In this document: positions 39,532-63,698 of the stretch, in pieces
How the letters are laid out: each line of letters starts with the position of its first letter
Numbering within the stretch: position 1 is the first letter of the stretch
From: Niveibacterium umoris
GTDB lineage: Bacteria; Pseudomonadota; Gammaproteobacteria; Burkholderiales; Rhodocyclaceae
Length of the DNA stretch: 64,000 nt
Reading direction: 5' to 3'
NCBI RefSeq assembly: GCF_014197015.1
Contig: NZ_JACIET010000001.1
Span: forward strand, 1,116,001 to 1,180,000
Position numbers and translations under genes: made by a program
The notes under the pieces: generated by a model
Database searches by the model: none
Told to the model about the DNA's origin: nothing
What the model saw: the letters and a program-made list of their open reading frames with translations, nothing else

Positions 39532-40125
39532 ATGAACTTCAAGAAACTCGCAGCAGCACTACTGTTTGCCGGTATTGCCGGCACAGCCTTCGGCGCAGAT
39601 GCAGGCGCCGCCGTTGTGACCGTTCCGGGCAAGGCCATGGTTGCTGGCCAGGTGACCTACACCGGCGAAGTCACCGCGGTCGACGCCACCACACGCGTCG
39701 TCACCGTGAAGAACGCCAAGGGTGAGAGCTACGAAATCGTTGCCGGTCCCGAGGTCAAGAACTTCGCCCAGATCAAGGTTGGCGACGCTTTGGTCATCAA
39801 GGCAGTGCAGGCGCTGACACTCGAGCTCAAGAAGGGTGGCGCTGGCATTCGTGAGCGCACCGACGCCGTTGATGGCGTTCGCGCCGCCGAGGGCGAGAAA
39901 CCCGGTGCCGCCGCGGGTGCAAAGACCACGGTGATCGCCGATGTGGTTGCCGTGGACCGCAAGACTGGCGTCGTGACCCTGAAGGGCGTGCATCACTCGA
40001 TGAAGCTGAATGTGAAGGATCCGGAGCAGCTCAAGCTCATCGAAAAGGGTGACCAGGTCAAGGGCACCTACGTCGAGGCCATCGGCGTCGCCGTCATGCC
40101 GGCGGCCAAACCCGCCGCCAAGTAA
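39532..40125 (+). CDS. Periplasmic protein with two related beta domains
   Basis: 197 residues. ATG at 39532 has GGAG upstream and starts a signal peptide ([18 protein letters not shown]). The mature protein appears to hold two copies of a small beta unit: [19 protein letters not shown]...[10 protein letters not shown] and [19 protein letters not shown]...[10 protein letters not shown]. It is reminiscent of DUF5666-like or OB-type domains. Function unknown. Single gene, ended by a strong terminator at 40141. Confidence 0.72.
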
Positions 40126-40140
40126 GACCAGCGCTGCAAC

Positions 40141-40182
40141 GCACCGGCCGGGCGCGCATCACCGCGCCCGGCCGGTGCCGTT
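40141..40182 (+). terminator. Strong hairpin terminator
   Basis: A perfect 16-bp stem (40141-40156 with 40163-40178) around a CATCAC loop, followed by CGTTT. It ends the 39532 gene. Confidence 0.85.
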
Positions 40183-40279
40183 TACGGGCTGCAGTGCGCG
40201 AGCGGCATTTCGCAGCAAGCGCATTGAACCGGATCAGGCGAGTGCAATCAAAGCCTTATCCCGTACAATCCGCCCCCTC

Positions 40280-42511
<2,232 letters not shown>

Positions 42512-42898: not shown

Positions 42899-42962
42899 GT
42901 GAATAAGTCACACGCCCGATGCGGCAAGCCGGGGCGCGCTCCTCTCGCAAGCCTCGTAAATT
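42899..42962 (+). promoter_or_regulatory. GTGA-N5-TCAC site and TAAATT box before the GNAT gene
   Basis: GTGA-ATAAG-TCAC at 42899-42911, followed exactly 58 bp (start to start) later by TAAATT (42957-42962), then TCTCTCCATG. The same palindrome and spacing occur at 43839 and 46802. If TAAATT is a -10, the palindrome centres near -64, a usual position for a class I activator. Confidence 0.6.
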
Positions 42963-43033
42963 CTCTCCATGCCCGCTGCACATAGAAACAGAGCGGCGGG
43001 CACCCGGTGCAGCCCCCAACCGAGGAGAGAATC

Positions 43034-43783
43034 ATGCAAGCCACTACCGCAGCCACCACGACCTACAACATCCACGCCTACCCGGCCCACCTGATCGACG
43101 CCATCACCCTCCCCCATGGTGAGCGCGCGGTGCTGCGCCCGGTGCTGCCGCAGGACGCGGCACTGGAACAGAAGTTCGTCGCCGGCCTCTCGCAGGGCGC
43201 CCGTTTCAACCGCTTTCACGGCCACCTGAGCGAGCTGAACGAACGCATCGCGATGCAGCTCACCTACATCGACTACATCCACCAGATGGGCTTTGTGGTG
43301 ACCCTGCGCGAGGGCGACGACGAGATCGTGATTGCAGATGCCTGCTACGTCCTCAACGACGACGGTGACACCGCCGAGTTCGCGATCGCGGTGTCCGACA
43401 AGTGGCAAGGTCAGGGTCTCGGCACCCAGCTGATCAAGGCGCTGAGCGACGCAGCGCGCCACAGCGGCGCACGTTGGCTGTACGGCGAAGTGCTCGCCAG
43501 CAACAGCAACATGCTCGCCCTGATGGTGCAGTGCGGCTTCACGGTGCGCCCGCACCCCGGCGACGACACGCTGGTGCGGGTCGAGCGCAGCGTCAACGCC
43601 CCCTGCCGCGCCCACCGCAATCCACGCAACACCGGCCTGCTGGCGGCCATCAGCCAGGCGCTACCCCAATGGCTGAACCTCGGCCCGAACGCGGCACCGG
43701 CGCGCGTGCAGCAACCCGCGCTGAGCCAGCATCCCGCCTTCGGCCGCAGCTATGAGCGCCAGTTGCTCGGCCCGTTCATCTGA
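43034..43783 (+). CDS. GNAT-family N-acetyltransferase
   Basis: 249 residues; GAGGAGA precedes ATG at 43034. The GNAT core spans about 25-185: LPHGERAVLRPVLPQDAALE, ARFNRFHGHLSELNE, then the acetyl-CoA loop VSDKWQGQGLGTQLIKALSD and ASNSNMLALMVQCGFTVRPH. The substrate cannot be told. The C-terminal 60 residues are Pro/Ala/Arg-rich and lie outside the fold. It is preceded by the GTGA/TCAC promoter module shared with the two micropeptides, and followed by a terminator. Confidence 0.88.
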   Translation: MQATTAATTTYNIHAYPAHLIDAITLPHGERAVLRPVLPQDAALEQKFVAGLSQGARFNRFHGHLSELNERIAMQLTYIDYIHQMGFVVTLREGDDEIVIADACYVLNDDGDTAEFAIAVSDKWQGQGLGTQLIKALSDAARHSGARWLYGEVLASNSNMLALMVQCGFTVRPHPGDDTLVRVERSVNAPCRAHRNPRNTGLLAAISQALPQWLNLGPNAAPARVQQPALSQHPAFGRSYERQLLGPFI

Positions 43784-43828: not shown

Positions 43829-43838
43829 CATGTCAAGT

Positions 43839-43902
43839 GTGAAAAGGTCACATTCCGGGCGCGACCTGTGCCGACGACCCGAAATCGCCCGCCCTCTAAA
43901 GT
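43839..43902 (+). promoter_or_regulatory. GTGA-N5-TCAC site and TAAAGT box before micropeptide A
   Basis: TGTGA-AAAGG-TCACA (palindrome arms 43838-43852) with TAAAGT at 43897-43902, 58 bp from GTGA. The following 65 nt are almost identical to the region at 46802, and GTGA lies 129 nt before the start codon in both. No good -35 lies before TAAAGT, which fits activator dependence. Confidence 0.65.
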
Positions 43903-43967
43903 CTCTCCATGGCCACGCGACTGCAACAACGCAGCGGAACGTGAAGCCACAGATCAGGGAGCGCGAC

Positions 43968-44078
43968 ATGAACACGACTTCAATCCAGCACGCCGCAAAA
44001 GCAAACATCTCGATCGAGAAGGACATGTTCGAGACATATCCGGCACGGCGCCAGCCCTGCGCACGTTTCGCACGCTGA
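43968..44078 (+). CDS. Micropeptide A (36 residues), paralogue of micropeptide B
   Basis: Starts MNTTSIQHAAKANISIEKDM and ends PARRQPCARFAR. CAGGGAG lies 6 nt before ATG. Micropeptide B at 46931 shares the first eight residues (MNTTSIQH) and the C-terminal pattern RxPCxRFAR with a different middle. Conservation at both ends, with a conserved promoter, argues for a real product. No signal peptide or membrane helix. Function unknown; the single cysteine and Arg/Phe-rich tail are the notable features. Confidence 0.65.
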   Translation: MNTTSIQHAAKANISIEKDMFETYPARRQPCARFAR

Positions 44079-44123
44079 GCAGCCACGCCGGTCGCTCCAC
44101 ACAACCCTCACCAGGAGCCGATC

Positions 44124-44384
44124 ATGAGCATGCACACAACACTGCACCGCGCCGATGCCGGATTTGCCGTATCGCCCGGCCCGAGTGTCGCCACGATACT
44201 GGTCGCAGCGGTCGCTGCGGTCCACAACGCGCTCGCCCGACTGACCTCGCCCCAGGCAAGTGAAGGGGATGCCGAACGGGCAGACTTCCTCGCGCAGGCA
44301 CGCGACCACGCCGACCTTGAAATGCGCGAACGCGCATGGGACGCCCTGCAGGCGCGCAGCCGTTCAATGCCACCCGTGCTCTGA
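44124..44384 (+). CDS. Small protein with DUF3563-like tail
   Basis: 86 residues; CAGGAG 6 nt before ATG at 44124, 45 nt after micropeptide A, so probably the same transcript. Middle: VATILVAAVAAVHNALARL, weakly hydrophobic. The C-terminal part, ERADFLAQARDHADLEMRER, resembles the DUF3563 motif (x-YLA-xAxDxxDLE-xRxR) found in small proteobacterial proteins of unknown function. Identification is by eye. Confidence 0.6.
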   Translation: MSMHTTLHRADAGFAVSPGPSVATILVAAVAAVHNALARLTSPQASEGDAERADFLAQARDHADLEMRERAWDALQARSRSMPPVL

Positions 44385-44402
44385 CCCGCCCCTGCGCCCG
44401 GC

Positions 44403-46298
44403 TCAGGTCGGGCGCGCTGCGGCACGCCGGGTGCCGTGCAAGGCATCGAGCGCCGCGCCGCCTTCCGCCTCCAGCTGCGCCACCGCGTATGCGTAGCCTT
44501 GTTCCACGATCTGGTCGAACTTGCTCCACTGCAGCAGCCCGACCCGTTCAAGCGGCGGGTTGAAATACAGGTCGGTCATGCGTTGCGCCTCACCCTGGCG
44601 CGACATGCTGTAAAGGATCGTGACATTCATCAGGTAAGCCGACAGCGATGGCAACCGGTAGCGGCGCATCGCACGCGGCACCAGGCGGTCGCGCAACAGG
44701 GCCCAGGTGCCCGGAACTTCGTCGAACTCCATCCGCCGCGGCTTCTTGAAATTGAGGTCGACGCCGATCACCGTAACCACGCCGCGCATGCGCTGCATGA
44801 CATCCACCGGGAAGTTGTTGAAGGTGCCGCCGTCGCACAGCAGGTCACCGTCCATGATCACCGGCGGCAAGGCGCCAGGTATCGCGATGCTCGCCCGCAG
44901 CGACTTCGACAGGCTGCCGCGAAACAGGGGTTGCTCGCGCGCCTGTGAGTAGTTGGTGGCAACGCAGAAGGCGTTCTTCCAGAGATCTTCGATCTCGATC
45001 TCGCCGCCGAAGAGTTGTTGCATGGCTTCGCTGATGATGCCGCGCAAACGCCGGCCCTTGATCAGCGAAAGCATCGGCAGCCAGTTGAAGTCGCCGGTCG
45101 GGTTGGTGCGGAACGCGCGCCGCGCGATTTCGGTGGCGCGCGCGAGCGGCAGATCCGATGCCACCAGGGTCGCCATCACGGCGCCCATGCTGGTGCCGCC
45201 CACGCAGTCGATCTCGACACCCCGCTCCTGCAGCGCCCGCACGATGCCAAGATGCGCAAAGCCGCGTGCGCCGCCCCCAGCCAGCACCAGCCCCACCGCC
45301 TTGCGTGCCTGGATGCGCGCGAGGCGTGCGATGTCCCGCTCAAGCGTCGGTCGCACATGCACATGATCGGCAACCGGTCGCCGCGCCAGCCATTGGCCTG
45401 TTGCCCGCGGACATGGACTGTCTGCCGCGTGCAGCAGCACGAGTATCTGCGCCGCCTCGGCGCGCTGCGGACGGTTATCGAGGCAGGCCGACTCGATCGG
45501 GTGAATGGCGATCGGCTGCGAGGCATCGGCGAACAGCAGGATCTCGTCGCTGTGGCGGCTGCAGCGCTGCGTCCAGGCCGTCGCCGTCGCGTCGCTGACC
45601 AGCAGCACGAAGTCACTGTCGGCCTCGATCTCGTCGATCAAGGTGGCGATCCGGCGATTGAGCTGTGCGTCGTCCGCGCGACCGTTGGCGGCTCCGGTCT
45701 CGCCCAGTTCGCGATCGATCGTCGCCGCATCGACCCAGCGCACCTTGCCATGCACCGCCATGGCCGCCGCCAGTCGTTCGCCAAGCACCGCGAGATCGAT
45801 GCCGGCGGTCACCGGAAACAGCCCGATGGTGACCGGAAGCGCGAGCGGATTGCGTTGCCGTTCCGTCTGAAAACGCAGGATGATCCGCCGTGTCAGCGCC
45901 AACGACAGCTGCGGGCTGCTGCCAAGCAGTGCAAGGAAGGCGCTCTTGTCGAGGCGCACTAGCACCGAGTCGCGCACCGCCACCACCGTTGCCGAACGCG
46001 GTGCATCGGTGTACAGGCTCATCTCGCCGATGATCTGGCCGCGTCCCATTTCACGCACCATGCGCTGAACGCCGTCGTCGCCGGTGACATAGGCGCGCAG
46101 TCGTCCGCTCACCGAGAGGTACATCGTGTCACCCGGCTCGCCCTGCACCATCAGCGTCTCGCCGCCAGCCAGTTCGATCCACGTCAGGCTGGAGAGCAGC
46201 ATGGACATCGCGGCAGGTTCGATCTCGCCGAGAAAGTAATGCAGGTATCGCGCAAGCAACGGATCGAGATGCGGTGCGCGCGCGGATGTCAGACTCAT
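44403..46298 (-). CDS. Cyclic-nucleotide-binding patatin-like phospholipase (NTE family)
   Basis: 631 residues; ATG at 46298. Residues 20-145 are a cNMP-binding domain (GDTMYLSVSGRLRAYV, GQIIGEMSLYTDAPRSATVV). Residues about 150-320 are a linker region of NTE-type proteins. The patatin domain begins at 334: VGLVLAGGGARGFAHLGI (oxyanion loop) and nucleophile Ser370 in CVGGTSMGAV, with the partner aspartate in LLCDGGTFNNFPVD. It should deacylate membrane phospholipids, gated by a cyclic nucleotide. The giant cyclase at 21905 is a possible source of that signal. Confidence 0.92.
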   Translation of the reverse strand: MSLTSARAPHLDPLLARYLHYFLGEIEPAAMSMLLSSLTWIELAGGETLMVQGEPGDTMYLSVSGRLRAYVTGDDGVQRMVREMGRGQIIGEMSLYTDAPRSATVVAVRDSVLVRLDKSAFLALLGSSPQLSLALTRRIILRFQTERQRNPLALPVTIGLFPVTAGIDLAVLGERLAAAMAVHGKVRWVDAATIDRELGETGAANGRADDAQLNRRIATLIDEIEADSDFVLLVSDATATAWTQRCSRHSDEILLFADASQPIAIHPIESACLDNRPQRAEAAQILVLLHAADSPCPRATGQWLARRPVADHVHVRPTLERDIARLARIQARKAVGLVLAGGGARGFAHLGIVRALQERGVEIDCVGGTSMGAVMATLVASDLPLARATEIARRAFRTNPTGDFNWLPMLSLIKGRRLRGIISEAMQQLFGGEIEIEDLWKNAFCVATNYSQAREQPLFRGSLSKSLRASIAIPGALPPVIMDGDLLCDGGTFNNFPVDVMQRMRGVVTVIGVDLNFKKPRRMEFDEVPGTWALLRDRLVPRAMRRYRLPSLSAYLMNVTILYSMSRQGEAQRMTDLYFNPPLERVGLLQWSKFDQIVEQGYAYAVAQLEAEGGAALDALHGTRRAAARPT

Positions 46299-46801
46299 GG
46301 CGGTGCCTCGGCAAGGCCGGCAAACTGCTCGAGCCAGCAAAAGGGGGAAAGGGACGCATGGGTCGGAGGCAGTCGGCGGTGCCCAAGCGGCCCAGCGCGA
46401 CGAAGCCTTCGAATCGCCTTCAATATCGGCAATTGCCGGGCACGGGTCAAACTATTTGCTGGCGGCGGACCACCTTTGGGGCGCGCCGACGCGCGCGCCG
46501 GGGCGATTCACAGCTTCAACGTTCTGGGAACCTCGGTGGGACCGGTGTCAGCCCTTTTACGAAATGCGTTTGATGGCGATCGAGCGACCGCTCTTCGCCG
46601 GGAAGCGTCGGTGAGTCCCTCAGCCATGAGCCGCCGCGTGTCAGCCATCACCCGAATCGTCGGGCAACGGCACCGGCAGCCCCTGAAATCGCCCGCAAGG
46701 GGGTCAAGAGTAAGAACCGTGTTTGAAGGCCTCCAACGCTCCCTGTGACTGTGGGCCGTCAGGCTATTGGTCGTTCGCGCCGCGGCTTCTCGCGTCGCTG
46801 G
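46299..46801. other. Gene-free stretch upstream of micropeptide B
   Basis: About 500 nt between the divergent patatin gene and the micropeptide B promoter. Frames here are open only because of high GC and lack ribosome sites or recognisable protein features. It should hold the patatin promoter; no other structure was seen. Confidence 0.5.
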
Positions 46802-46865
46802 GTGAAAAAGTCACATTCTCGGCGCGACCTGTGCCGGCGACCCGACGCCGCCCGCTCTCTAAAGT
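46802..46865 (+). promoter_or_regulatory. GTGA-N5-TCAC site and TAAAGT box before micropeptide B
   Basis: GTGA-AAAAG-TCAC at 46802-46814 and TAAAGT at 46860-46865, again 58 bp apart and 129 nt from GTGA to the start codon. It aligns almost without gaps to 43839-43970. Confidence 0.65.
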
Positions 46866-46930
46866 GTGCTCATCGACGCGCCACTGCAACGAAGTGGCGC
46901 CAGGACAAGAGCCAGAAAAGGGAGCACATC

Positions 46931-47047
46931 ATGAACACCACTTCGATCCAGCATTTCGCCGCACCGCGCGCACTTGAGGTCGTTCGGTTCGAGGACAACG
47001 GCGACATGCCGGCAGGCAAGCGCCCGTGCGTCCGTTTTGCACGCTAA
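46931..47047 (+). CDS. Micropeptide B (38 residues), paralogue of micropeptide A
   Basis: Starts MNTTSIQHFAAPRALEVVRF and ends AGKRPCVRFAR. AAGGGAG precedes ATG at 46931. It shares both ends with micropeptide A (MNTTSIQH; RxPCxRFAR) and differs in the middle, where B carries an acidic FEDNGDMP stretch. No DUF3563-like gene follows here. Function unknown. Confidence 0.65.
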   Translation: MNTTSIQHFAAPRALEVVRFEDNGDMPAGKRPCVRFAR

Positions 47048-48813: not shown

Positions 48814-51800
48814 TCAGAACGGATATGCCGGCATGCTGGTCTCGATGTCCAGCCACTGTCCCGTCGCCAGCTGGTTATGCTTGCCGTTGGCCAGCGCGTA
48901 GAAACCGCGGGTCGCCGCCGGCAGGCCGAGGTCGGAGATCGAGTCCAGCGCGGTCTGGCTCAACGGGATGCCGTACATCGCGAAGTGCTTGCGCATGTCC
49001 TGGCCGATGATCTTCGAACTCAGTACGTAGAACAGGTCTTCGTTGCTGATGGTGTTGTTGGCGAAGCGCCCCATCCCGTACTTGCCCTTGTTGTTGGCGT
49101 CCCAGGCTTTGGCGACAAGGCGGTCGGCTTTGGTCAGCAGCTGGAAGAATTCCAGCGTGCTATCCATCGTCGGCTTCGCCAGTCCGGCGCGCAGCTTGGC
49201 GTACTGGAAGGCCATCTGGAAATGCACGGCACGCATCGGGTCCTGGCTTGCGCCCTGCCACAGGCGCACTTCCATGTCGGCGCGCAGGGCCTCGTCGGCC
49301 AGACCGGTGCCCCGGTTGGCAACGATGTCGGCGTAGAGCCCGGTGTGGTCCAGGTTGTGACCGGTATCGACGCCAATCAGCGCGTATTCGCGCAGCATCG
49401 TTGCGCTGGCGAGGATGTTGTTGTCGCACTCGACGACGCAGCCCTTGCCGTTCGGCGCGATGTGCATCACGCGCTGCACCGTGTTATGGCCCAGCTCGTG
49501 CGCCCAGCCCCAGCCGACGTCGATGCCGGCAAAACCATCCGACGGATTCCCTGAACACAGGAAGCCGCAGGCCGCAATCCAGCCGATGAAGTGCTGCACG
49601 TTCGGTGCGCGGTGCAAGGGGCCATCGCAGGTCCAGCCAAGCTGGGTGCAGACGTTCTGGGCCAGCGCCGACATCGGCATGTTGTTGTAGCCGTTGGCAT
49701 AGTGGTTGCTGTCGAAGAGGATGCCCTTGATGCGGTCGACCACGTACACCTTCGGGTCGGTGGTGCCGATGACCTTCTGTGCGTAACCAATCGTTTGCTG
49801 GATCTCGCCGCCGACCAGTTTGCTGGTCTGCCAGCCGAAGTCGGCGCGTTTGAGCGCGGCCACCGCCTCGTCAATCTCCGCCTGCGAGGGATTGCGGGTG
49901 AAATCGAAGTGCGCATACTTCGCGGCGCCCTTGATGCGCAGCTTCACCACCGTACCGGCGGTAGCGCCGCTATACCGCAGTTCGAGCGGACCACCGAACG
50001 GGGTCACGAAGCTGTTGTCGGTGCCTGCCGTGAGCGGGATGTTGAAGGATTGCGGACGACGCGGACGGGCGTAGGTCTTGTCGGCAACCGGATCGCCGTA
50101 GCTGCGCACATAGCTCGTCTGCACGCCCAAGCCGGTCGCACCGGCGGCATCGACGATCTGGATCGTCACCGGCTTGCCCGGGATCGCGCCGCGGCCGATC
50201 AGCGTGATGCCGCTGGTCTGCGCAATGGTCACGTCGATGTCTTCGTAGCTGTTGCTCACCGCGATGCTGGCTGCGGCGGCCGGCATGTAATCGCCGGCGC
50301 CCTTGGGCGGAATGGTGGTCGTGGTGCGGTTGAACACCAACCACGAGTCCGACGCGTAGGCGCGCAGGAAGTCGTCCGAATCGCCCTTGCTTGACAGCGG
50401 CGTGCCATAGACCTGGCTGCGGCGCTGCACGTCCGCCCACAGCACGAGCAGCGGGTAGAGCTTGCTGTCCGGGTCGGCAAATACGTTGATGCCGCGCGAC
50501 TGCAAACTCGCCAACGCGCTCATCACCGCGTCGATCGGCTTCAGCGGCGTGGTATCGGTAAAGTCCAGCGTCAGGTCGGTGCGCTGCAGCAGGCCGAGGG
50601 TGGTGATCAGCGCGCCGAACTGGTCGGCTCGCGCCAGAGTGTCGGCCCGGGTGCGTCCTGAGCCGACTGATACAGCAGCGGCCGAGGCGTAATAGTTGCC
50701 CGGGTAGCCGCCCAGAGACATGCCCATCGCACCGAGCACGGTGCGGCCGCCTGTGGAGTCGATCCAGTTCGGGTGCATGTAGATCACCGACTTGCCGGCC
50801 TCGAGGTAGCGGCGCACGAGCGCGGCGAGCCCGGGGCTGTCAGTCGTCTTCGCGCCGAATACGATCAGGTTCAGCGAGCTCCAGCAGGTGTTGGTCGGGT
50901 CGTCGACCTTGCAGGTACTCAGCACCGCGTTCACGCCGGCTCGTGCGGCGAAGAGCTTGACGTTGTTGGCGTCGTAACCTGCAACGCCAACCTGCAGCGT
51001 GGCCGGTAACTTGCCAGCGCCGTTGCCGGTCACCAGCCAGGTGAATGCACGCGTGAACAGCGGAAGATGTTGCTGCTCGCGGGTCGTGCCGGCCATCCAC
51101 CCGAGCACGTCCGCTCCGTAGGCAAGGCCCCGGCCGGTGCCGACACGCGCGATGGCCGCCATGCCTGTGCCGTTGTCGGACAGGATCAGGGGCGCGGCGA
51201 TCGTCGTCTTGGTCGCGGTGATCGAGCTGCTGTTGGTGCCGTGGTTCAGGCTCAGGTCAGTCAGCTGCAGGCCATAGATGCCCTGAAGTGCGCCCTGCTG
51301 CCATTGCTGAAGCGCGCTGGCGGTGCTGATGGCCTGCGAGAGCAGGTCTTTCTGGTTGGCCGTGCTCAGGCCGCTCGGGTCACCGCTGCTCAGCGCCTTG
51401 GTGATCGGGCTAACCGTGGGCGCGGGCGGGGTGCCGGTGCCGCCGGTCGTGGTGCCGCCAGTCGAACCGCCGGTGGTCGTGCCTCCGGTGGTGGTTCCGC
51501 CCGTGGTCGTGCCTCCGGTACTCGTACCACCATTCGTGGTTCCGCCCGTCGAACCGCCTGTGGTGGTGCCACCGGCGGTCGTACCACCAGTCGCGGTTCC
51601 GCCGGTCGTGGTTCCGCCCGTCGTGGTGCCGCCGCCAGTTGCCCCGCCCGTGGTGGTGCCGCCTGTCGTAGTGCCGCCAGTCGAACCGCCTGTGGTAGTG
51701 CCACCGGTGGTCGTACCACCAGTCGCTGTTCCGCCGGTCGTTGTACCTCCCGAGGTGCTCCCGCCGTTATTGCCACCTGTTGTCGAGCCACCGCCATTGG

Positions 51801-52200
51801 TGCCTCCCGTCGCGGTGCCGCCAGTCGTTCCCGTGCCGCTACCCGACCCGGTATCGGTGCCGGCGCTGCCGCCCGAACCCGTGGTACTGCCGCTGCCGCT
51901 CGAAGCATTGTCGTCCGGCGTCCCTCCGGTCGTGGTGCCAGCGCCGATCCCGCCCGGTTCCGCGTTCGGGTCCAAGTTGCCGGCCGTCGAGCCACCGTTT
52001 CCCGGCGTGCTGCCCCCCGAGGTGCTGCCGTTGTCGGTCGAGCTGCCGCCACCGGTCCCGGTCTGGCCGCTGCCGCCACTGGCAGAGCCGTTTCCGGGGC
52101 TGGAATTTCCGTCCGAGCCGCCACCACAGGCGACGAGGAGCGCCAAGACTGCCGACGCGGCTACACGACCGATCAGGATTTTGTAGTCAGCTTTTTTCAT
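48814..52200 (-). CDS. ImpA-family lipoprotein metalloprotease with long Thr/Gly linker
   Basis: 1128 residues from ATG at 52200; the frame extends upstream without a leader. Lipoprotein signal ASAVLALLVAC (Cys25). Residues about 26-255 are an almost pure Gly/Thr/Ser linker built on GGTTTGG-like repeats. Then an ImpA-type N-terminal region, a beta domain (IPLTAGTDNSFVTPFGGPLE, VVKLRIKGAAKYAHFDF), and an M60/ImpA peptidase with the zinc motif HELGH at 901-905 (GWGWAHELGHNTVQRVMH). ImpA of Pseudomonas cleaves O-glycosylated mucin-like proteins. The lipid anchor plus a long flexible stalk suggests surface display (inference). Confidence 0.88.
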   Translation of the reverse strand: MKKADYKILIGRVAASAVLALLVACGGGSDGNSSPGNGSASGGSGQTGTGGGSSTDNGSTSGGSTPGNGGSTAGNLDPNAEPGGIGAGTTTGGTPDDNASSGSGSTTGSGGSAGTDTGSGSGTGTTGGTATGGTNGGGSTTGGNNGGSTSGGTTTGGTATGGTTTGGTTTGGSTGGTTTGGTTTGGATGGGTTTGGTTTGGTATGGTTAGGTTTGGSTGGTTNGGTSTGGTTTGGTTTGGTTTGGSTGGTTTGGTGTPPAPTVSPITKALSSGDPSGLSTANQKDLLSQAISTASALQQWQQGALQGIYGLQLTDLSLNHGTNSSSITATKTTIAAPLILSDNGTGMAAIARVGTGRGLAYGADVLGWMAGTTREQQHLPLFTRAFTWLVTGNGAGKLPATLQVGVAGYDANNVKLFAARAGVNAVLSTCKVDDPTNTCWSSLNLIVFGAKTTDSPGLAALVRRYLEAGKSVIYMHPNWIDSTGGRTVLGAMGMSLGGYPGNYYASAAAVSVGSGRTRADTLARADQFGALITTLGLLQRTDLTLDFTDTTPLKPIDAVMSALASLQSRGINVFADPDSKLYPLLVLWADVQRRSQVYGTPLSSKGDSDDFLRAYASDSWLVFNRTTTTIPPKGAGDYMPAAAASIAVSNSYEDIDVTIAQTSGITLIGRGAIPGKPVTIQIVDAAGATGLGVQTSYVRSYGDPVADKTYARPRRPQSFNIPLTAGTDNSFVTPFGGPLELRYSGATAGTVVKLRIKGAAKYAHFDFTRNPSQAEIDEAVAALKRADFGWQTSKLVGGEIQQTIGYAQKVIGTTDPKVYVVDRIKGILFDSNHYANGYNNMPMSALAQNVCTQLGWTCDGPLHRAPNVQHFIGWIAACGFLCSGNPSDGFAGIDVGWGWAHELGHNTVQRVMHIAPNGKGCVVECDNNILASATMLREYALIGVDTGHNLDHTGLYADIVANRGTGLADEALRADMEVRLWQGASQDPMRAVHFQMAFQYAKLRAGLAKPTMDSTLEFFQLLTKADRLVAKAWDANNKGKYGMGRFANNTISNEDLFYVLSSKIIGQDMRKHFAMYGIPLSQTALDSISDLGLPAATRGFYALANGKHNQLATGQWLDIETSMPAYPF
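51430..52130 (-). repeat. Thr/Gly-coding tandem repeat tract inside the ImpA-like gene
   Basis: Roughly 700 nt of imperfect repeats with units like GGTGGTACGACCACCGGT. It encodes the GGTTTGG linker, about 230 residues. Such a tract is prone to slippage, so its length may vary between strains. Confidence 0.85.
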
Positions 52201-52628
52201 TGGTTCGCCAATCAACACAAACGCCCCCGGCGCGCTCTGCGACGCGGAGTGCCAATTTGAAGGAAATTCAAACGTCTGCCCGCGCGCTTCCTCGGTCTGC
52301 GCGGCGTTCCGTCGCGGTACCACGCGCTGCGATCCGTGCGCGGGTCACGACCGTGAGGCCGAGGCCGGGTTCGCCCGCCTCGTGCATGACACCAAGGCGA
52401 GCCAGACCCAACATGGACAGCATGGTAAGAAGCGAGCCGCCCAAGGCCTACTGCATGTCTGCTCGATCGTCCTGCAGCAGCGCTCAGGGCAATACGCACC
52501 GAGCAGTGCAAGGCCGGTTCAGTGAGGCGAGAAGCGGTCGCTCCGTTGAAGAAGGAAGGCTTATTCTTCTGGTCGACAGAGGCGACCAGGTGGCAACCCG
52601 CGATCAATCGGGCGCAGTGAGGGGCGGG
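52201..52628. other. Intergenic region carrying repeat copy R1
   Basis: 428 nt between the GGDEF sensor gene end and the ImpA-like gene start. Apart from repeat R1 (52445-52485) nothing credible is coded. It should hold the ImpA-like promoter. Confidence 0.5.
52445..52485 (+). repeat. 41-nt repeat, copy R1
   Basis: The core reads GGCCTACTGC-ATGT-CTGCTCGATCGTCCTGCAG and ends CAGCGCTC. It matches R2 (56421) at 36 of 41 positions. It contains CTGCT...AGCAG able to pair and the CTGCAG palindrome. It lies 144 nt past the 3' end of the GGDEF sensor gene. Confidence 0.7.
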
Positions 52629-63056: not shown

Positions 63057-63698
63057 ATGAAGACCGCTCCAGCATCACCCGCTGCACTCAAGGACGAAGT
63101 GCTCCAGGCCATGGCCGCCCATGGTGGCGTGCGTACCTTTCCCGCCCAGTCAGTGCTGATCAACGAAGACGACGACAGCGACTCGATCTTCATCATCCTG
63201 TCTGGCCGCGTGAAGGTGTTTGGCGCGTCGGCGCAGGGCCGCGAGGTCATCTACAACACGCTTGCTGCCGGCGAGTATTTCGGCGAGATGTCACTCGATG
63301 GCGGTTCACGCTCGGCGTCGGTGATGACGCTGGAGCCTACGACCTGCGTGGTCGTACCGGGCAGCAAGGTGCGCGACTTCCTGGGCTCGCACCCGGACTT
63401 CGCCCTGCACCTGATCCGCAAGCTGATCGGCCTGGTGCGCCATTCCACCGACAACGTGAAGAGCCTTGCGCTCGACGACGTTTACAGCCGCGTCGCGCGG
63501 CTGTTGAACGACCGTGCGCAGGAGATCGACGGCAAGCTCGTGGTCGCCGAGAAGCTCACCCAACAGGACATCGCGGAGCGCGTCGGTTCGTCACGCGAGA
63601 TGATCAGCCGCATCTTCAAGCAACTCACCCAGGGCGGCTACATCTCGGTCGACAGCAAACAGATCGTGCTGCTCAAGAAGTTGCCGGCCGGCTGGTAG
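63057..63698 (+). CDS. CRP/FNR-family transcriptional regulator (CRP-like)
   Basis: 213 residues. An N-terminal cyclic-nucleotide pocket (GEYFGEMSLDGGSRSASVMT, with the Glu and Arg-Ser pair of cAMP-binding CRPs at E77, R85, S86), a dimerisation helix, and a C-terminal helix-turn-helix. The recognition helix SSREMISRIFKQL has Arg180, Glu181 and Arg185, the three residues that read GTGA in E. coli CRP. That makes it a candidate reader of the GTGA-N5-TCAC sites at 42899, 43839 and 46802, though the spacer there is 5 not 6. No FNR-type cysteines. Confidence 0.93.
   Translation: MKTAPASPAALKDEVLQAMAAHGGVRTFPAQSVLINEDDDSDSIFIILSGRVKVFGASAQGREVIYNTLAAGEYFGEMSLDGGSRSASVMTLEPTTCVVVPGSKVRDFLGSHPDFALHLIRKLIGLVRHSTDNVKSLALDDVYSRVARLLNDRAQEIDGKLVVAEKLTQQDIAERVGSSREMISRIFKQLTQGGYISVDSKQIVLLKKLPAGW

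Follow-up and report, generated by a model that had tools for sequence, protein, structure and literature searches.

Two paralogous micropeptide genes with conserved ends

The window (the whole 64,000-nucleotide stretch of Niveibacterium umoris DNA analysed here) contains two short genes encoding peptides of 36 and 38 residues. The first lies between the gene of a stand-alone GNAT acetyltransferase and that of a DUF3563-like protein, and a CRP-family regulator gene is found further along the same strand.

43034..43783, plus strand: GNAT1, stand-alone Pat-type GNAT acetyltransferase, 249 aa (Acetyltransf_1, E 1.6e-11)
43968..44078, plus strand: peptide 1 gene, 36 aa, MNTTSIQHAAKANISIEKDMFETYPARRQPCARFAR; sits where relatives hold a second acetyltransferase gene, GNAT2
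44124..44384, plus strand: DUF3563-like protein behind peptide 1, 86 aa (DUF3563, E 0.006, below the curated cut-off)
46931..47047, plus strand: peptide 2 gene, 38 aa, MNTTSIQHFAAPRALEVVRFEDNGDMPAGKRPCVRFAR; not followed by any gene on its strand
63057..63698, plus strand: CRP-family regulator, 213 aa (cNMP_binding, E 9e-22; HTH_Crp_2, E 2e-12)

Between the two peptides, on the minus strand (44403-46340), lies a gene for a patatin-like protein with cNMP-binding and NTE P-loop-like domains, and peptide 2 is placed divergently in its upstream region. Another minus-strand gene (48814-52323) encodes a large protein in which IMPa N-terminal and helical domains are recognised, together with a weak match to M60 peptidase.

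The two short genes are real paralogues, with a resemblance beyond chance similarity. Their bodies align at 41, against a maximum of 31 among shuffled sequences (n=200), and the 152 nt upstream, comprising promoter and leader, are 77% identical, with 129 nt from the start of the operator to the ATG in both. Each gene has an AGGGAG ribosome-binding site and encodes a single cysteine; both peptides begin with MNTTSIQH and end with [RK]xPC[AV]RFAR, while the middle is not conserved and carries an in-frame indel. A preliminary description of this DNA had already proposed a paralogous pair of these lengths with aligned promoters and 129-nt leaders, fixed ends and a free middle, all of which is borne out here; of the two end motifs that it gave, the start stands, and the end, written there as RxPCxRFAR, is corrected to the form above.

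The ends have diverged in a way that points to constraint on the protein. In the seven codons after the ATG, none of the three nucleotide differences between the copies alters an amino acid, and the four that fall in the last seven codons produce one amino-acid change. Simulated divergence gives such a pattern a joint probability of ~1e-4 in the absence of protein-level selection, a figure that applies to ends selected post hoc for being alike and to one pair in one genome. Because the end differences are almost all synonymous, it seems to be the peptides themselves, beyond the DNA, that are preserved, and the peptide itself is probably under selection. Also, both copies retain the start, the ribosome-binding site, the stop and the frame across the indel, and both peptides are most likely translated.

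Searching 299 genomes of the family with the peptide 1 protein, as the preliminary description had suggested for short frames in related genomes, returned just the two copies described here as credible matches, the next match having an E-value of at least 0.02. Those weak matches (E 0.02-1) that were fetched as loci lacked the start and end motifs and were rejected as relatives. No model in Pfam or NCBIfam matched either peptide, and no relatives appeared in pattern-based searches of genome and viral collections or in a plasmid search, in agreement with the earlier statement that the pair belongs to no known family.

A rigid promoter precedes both peptides and GNAT1

Upstream of each peptide we found the same arrangement of an operator, a second conserved block (element 2) and a -10 hexamer, of which a third copy precedes GNAT1.

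42899..42962, plus strand: third promoter copy (operator, element 2, TAAATT), before GNAT1
43838..43852, plus strand: operator 1 of peptide 1, TGTGAAAAGGTCACA, inverted repeat TGTGA-N5-TCACA, with GTGAA and GTCAC in every aligned site
43861..43877, plus strand: element 2 of peptide 1, GCGACCTGTGCCGACGA, a block conserved in the 19-site alignment
43897..43902, plus strand: -10 element TAAAGT of peptide 1, 45 nt past the operator GTCAC
46802..46815, plus strand: operator 1 of peptide 2, GTGAAAAAGTCACA
46824..46840, plus strand: element 2 of peptide 2, GCGACCTGTGCCGGCGA, conserved in the 19-site alignment
46860..46865, plus strand: -10 element TAAAGT of peptide 2

The layout is TGTGAAWANGTCACA, exactly 45 nt, then TAAAGT, with a spacing that is invariant across sites. 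Conserved parts of the alignment are TGTGAA[AT]ANGTCACA in the operator, GCGAC..GC...CG.CGA in element 2, TANAGT, and C[AC] near the predicted transcription start. While E. coli CRP favours a spacer of six, TGTGA-N6-TCACA, all sites here have a spacer of five. Since the half-sites match but the spacer is N5, the operator is non-canonical, and it may still work like a CRP site. At every site its centre is 52 nt upstream of the -10 hexamer, or at about -64 relative to the predicted start, which corresponds to an activator-type position near -61. A sigma-70 -35/-10 scan returned nothing at the peptide promoters, which have no recognisable -35 box, as fits an activator-dependent promoter.

Element 2 is located ~40 nt before the predicted start in all promoters, a position expected for a class II activator or for a substitute of the -35 box. 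For peptides 1 and 2, the predicted starts are at about 43908-43910 and 46871-46873. Most transcripts of the set would open with a stem-loop located within a few nucleotides of the predicted start (z about -2.4 for both peptides). These leader stem-loops differ in sequence, for example those at 43908-43967, 46871-46930 and 42968-43033 of the window.

The promoter defines a genus-level regulon

A pattern search allowing three mismatches detected 19 sites in five of seven congeners (the Niveibacterium/Uliginosibacterium group), with almost no matches to a reversed control pattern. A 75-nt profile built from these sites recovered 20 sites at E <= 1.8e-7 among the 299 family genomes, the next match following at 8.5e-4, and the promoters of peptides 1 and 2 are its two best-scoring members; nothing convincing was found in the 292 family genomes outside the genus. 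The genome studied here has seven such sites. With a flexible spacer, a search of 81 relatives yielded one fixed spacing, in four genomes of the genus; two matches outside the genus had other spacings and looked like chance.

Downstream of the sites are stand-alone Pat-type GNATs, hydrophobic proteins of 69-86 aa, DUF3563-like proteins and the two peptides, so the promoter is not specific to the peptides. The hydrophobic proteins (MNxNRLDDQMNSILVAVFA...SFGR...PRITVVA) have one hydrophobic stretch and are unmatched in Pfam; members behind the regulon promoter lie at G000:C1:1244641 and C5:26230 (loci L095 and L135), and also in G120, G185 and G072. A motif scan around GNAT relatives in Rubrivivax and Piscinibacter detected neither such a promoter nor a CRP-like neighbour. 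The gene set is apparently a previously undescribed genus-level regulon with a rigid promoter.

The CRP-family protein is a putative activator of this regulon, based on co-occurrence and neighbourhood. It carries both a cNMP-binding domain and a Crp-type HTH domain; most residues that align with the cAMP pocket and the recognition helix of CRP are conserved, the helix SREMISR corresponding to SRETVGR of CRP. The five genomes carrying the promoter and stand-alone GNATs, and no others, have an orthologue with 75-86% identity, a co-occurrence over seven genomes that would arise by chance once in 21. In the two congeners lacking promoter and stand-alone GNATs, relatives of the regulator reach ~40% at best, and the best GNAT match is a Pat-domain protein of ~930 aa that is present in all seven genomes. 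The regulator orthologue lies immediately upstream of the first GNAT in four of the five genomes; here, its gene precedes a second GNAT pair by ~3 kb, and that pair begins past the end of the window. It is thus probable that one CRP-family activator switches the acetylation genes jointly with the small hydrophobic proteins and the micropeptides.

Neither the third promoter copy, the promoter regulon, the regulator gene nor the position of peptide 1 in an acetyltransferase slot had been part of the preliminary description. Its suggestion of a stress-induced small protein is retained as far as an induced small protein goes, given that the promoter is part of a CRP-type regulon.

Peptide 1 occupies the position of GNAT2

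Genome G120 has the order YgiQ, YkgJ-like, CRP-like, GNAT1, promoter, GNAT2, DUF3563-like, followed by a promoter and a small hydrophobic protein; the order here is YgiQ, YkgJ-like, GNAT1, promoter, peptide 1, DUF3563-like. The 86-aa DUF3563-like protein is 42% identical over 86 aa (E 5e-19) to the protein that follows GNAT2 in G120. From stop to next start, 45 nt follow peptide 1, and the gap after GNAT2 is 43 nt in G120, 38 nt in G185 and 48 nt in the second cluster of this genome. This second GNAT1/GNAT2/DUF3563-like cluster (L094 4641-6250; G000:C1:1182640-1184249) lies ~3 kb downstream of the CRP-like gene, and the N-terminal halves of its GNATs have strongly diverged.

An in-frame alignment pairs the 3' end of peptide 1 with that of GNAT2 of G120 (DMFET..YPARRQPCARFAR versus HVFETIQHAWPQWLLPTRFAF), a match equalled by 4 of 4365 control 3' ends, and by 2 of 344 at the protein level. 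The resemblance is short and strong just for this pair, that of peptide 2 being equalled by ~5% of controls, and alignment of the peptide N-termini with GNAT2 was insignificant. No GNAT catalytic domain was detected in either peptide, given their 36 and 38 aa and the lack of Pfam and NCBIfam matches. A competing local match places the 3' end of peptide 1 inside GNAT2 of G185; an origin from the middle of GNAT2 is considered less likely, because a C-terminal origin accounts for the stop and the downstream spacing as well. In their operator-to--10 stretch, the peptide promoters are as like the GNAT1 and DUF promoters of G007 as they are like GNAT2 promoters; in G007, a promoter of the same type stands directly before a DUF3563-like gene, without GNAT2.

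Because the slot, the gap length, the homology of the DUF3563-like proteins and the in-frame tail agree, descent of peptide 1 from GNAT2 is likely, appreciably better than an even chance. Fixed ends and a free middle are what the junction of a mid-gene deletion would leave.

Weighing alternative explanations

The best overall explanation, to which we assign a probability of roughly one half, is that GNAT2 shrank to a micropeptide, which then became duplicated, has been kept by selection and is made under the CRP-like activator. Its main rival, unlikely but weightier than the others, is a functionless relic: GNAT2 was deleted, the promoter was inherited and causes the short frames left behind it to be translated as noise, and the second copy arose by chance duplication and is being lost. 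The peptides are indeed known from one genome alone, their middle is unconserved, and the slot can be lost, because G007 carries the promoter and the DUF3563-like gene without GNAT2. The nearly uniform synonymy of the end differences speaks against decay, as do the intact start, ribosome-binding site, stop and frame of both copies and the rank of the peptide promoters at the top of the regulon. Quite unlikely, in turn, is that an unrelated and possibly functional small-protein gene recombined into the GNAT2 slot and acquired its tail likeness by chance. The insignificant N-terminal similarity to GNAT2 and a tail match that is short and clear for one pair alone would suit this idea, but slot and downstream gene are the same, the intergenic length is similar, and the in-frame tail match is rare among controls.

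That the transcript is the product, as a small RNA or a leader whose 5' hairpin controls stability or translation, has little probability. The stem-loops near the predicted start agree with it, but they are common to members encoding ordinary proteins, so the hairpin is not a special product of the peptides; additionally, the coding ends vary at synonymous positions, no terminator-like site follows either peptide on its own strand, and Rfam matched neither transcript. The preliminary description had regarded frames broken behind a kept promoter as a sign of an RNA product; such a case is absent, and what follows the promoter in relatives is a complete GNAT gene, a gene for a DUF3563-like protein or one for a small hydrophobic protein. 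It had also offered a leader peptide, which does not suit both copies, as no gene that peptide 2 could attenuate follows it on its strand. Least probable is its further proposal of a modified peptide, taken here as a peptide made on the ribosome and then modified, or a secreted signal, in which the leader is conserved and the C-terminus contains the cysteine. One cysteine, fixed ends, a variable middle and a radical-SAM protein at 40049-42511 recall such systems; this protein, the sole radical-SAM gene product seen nearby, is however YgiQ-like (Radical_SAM_N, DUF3362), and relatives without the peptide keep the same neighbourhood, including a long ORF beside the YkgJ-like gene in the corresponding position. 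Among the neighbours examined (GNAT, DUF3563-like, patatin, YkgJ-like and YgiQ-like), no modifying or export gene was recognised, and the very C-terminus is invariant, unlike a variable core.

Proposed mechanism and relation to known systems

According to the GNAT2-collapse model, a CRP-family activator would switch the regulon on via TGTGAAWANGTCACA operators ~64 bp before the predicted start, with stand-alone Pat-type GNAT acetyltransferases as its core. In-frame loss of the catalytic domain of GNAT2 would have left a short start and the C-terminal tail as peptide 1, and the promoter-peptide unit would then have been copied to give peptide 2. Both peptides would be translated, with their two ends maintained by selection, and their production would most likely accompany that of the GNATs whenever the CRP-like activator is active, for which carbon limitation is a possible condition. 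As to their molecular role, which we infer, the peptides might serve as small non-catalytic partners in the acetylation regulon, for instance by filling a site once bound by the GNAT2 tail. The strength of these proposals falls from the regulator to the origin to the molecular role. A stronger version, that a micropeptide family derived from an acetyltransferase gene through loss of its catalytic domain, retained under the CRP-type promoter of the enzyme and duplicated, now regulates the remaining Pat-type acetyltransferases by mimicking the GNAT2 ends, is doubtful.

A link between CRP and acetyltransferases has precedent, because cAMP-CRP is described as raising expression of the E. coli acetyltransferase gene patZ (Castano-Cerezo et al. 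2011, cited in PMC4299603; reviewed in PMC8556138). As there, a CRP-family activator, here putative, is linked to a Pat-type GNAT gene; unlike PatZ, the GNATs here are multiplied and have no acyl-CoA-synthetase part, one rigid promoter is common to GNATs, small proteins and two peptides, and the operator spacer is 5 rather than the 6 of E. coli CRP sites. Mycobacterial Pat is a type III GNAT in which a cAMP-binding domain is fused to the GNAT domain (PMC8556138). It provides the nearest NCBIfam model to the GNAT domain found here (E 1.5e-23 for GNAT1, under the family cut-off of that model), and a cNMP-binding protein is again linked to a Pat-type GNAT, whereas the cNMP-binding part here belongs to a separate DNA-binding regulator.

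The likeness of the 86-aa neighbour and its relatives to DUF3563 (Pfam PF12086) concerns a C-terminal stretch and scores below the curated cut-off; to our knowledge no function has been assigned to DUF3563, and a literature search found no paper naming it.

Truncation of a larger gene, or a deletion inside it, can give rise to small bacterial proteins. Under the GNAT2-collapse model, the peptides would resemble such truncation-born proteins as short frames left in the slot of a larger gene; they differ from them in being duplicated, conserved at both ends and unmatched to described families; a literature search for small proteins left behind by internal deletion found none.

The locus thus offers a testable case of small-protein gene birth, in which an enzyme gene would have collapsed in place, with its promoter kept and its product preserved and copied. 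It also defines a compact regulon of rigid promoter, regulator, enzymes and small proteins, whose members are probably co-switched by one activator, so that the function of its unknown parts may be approached through the known one.
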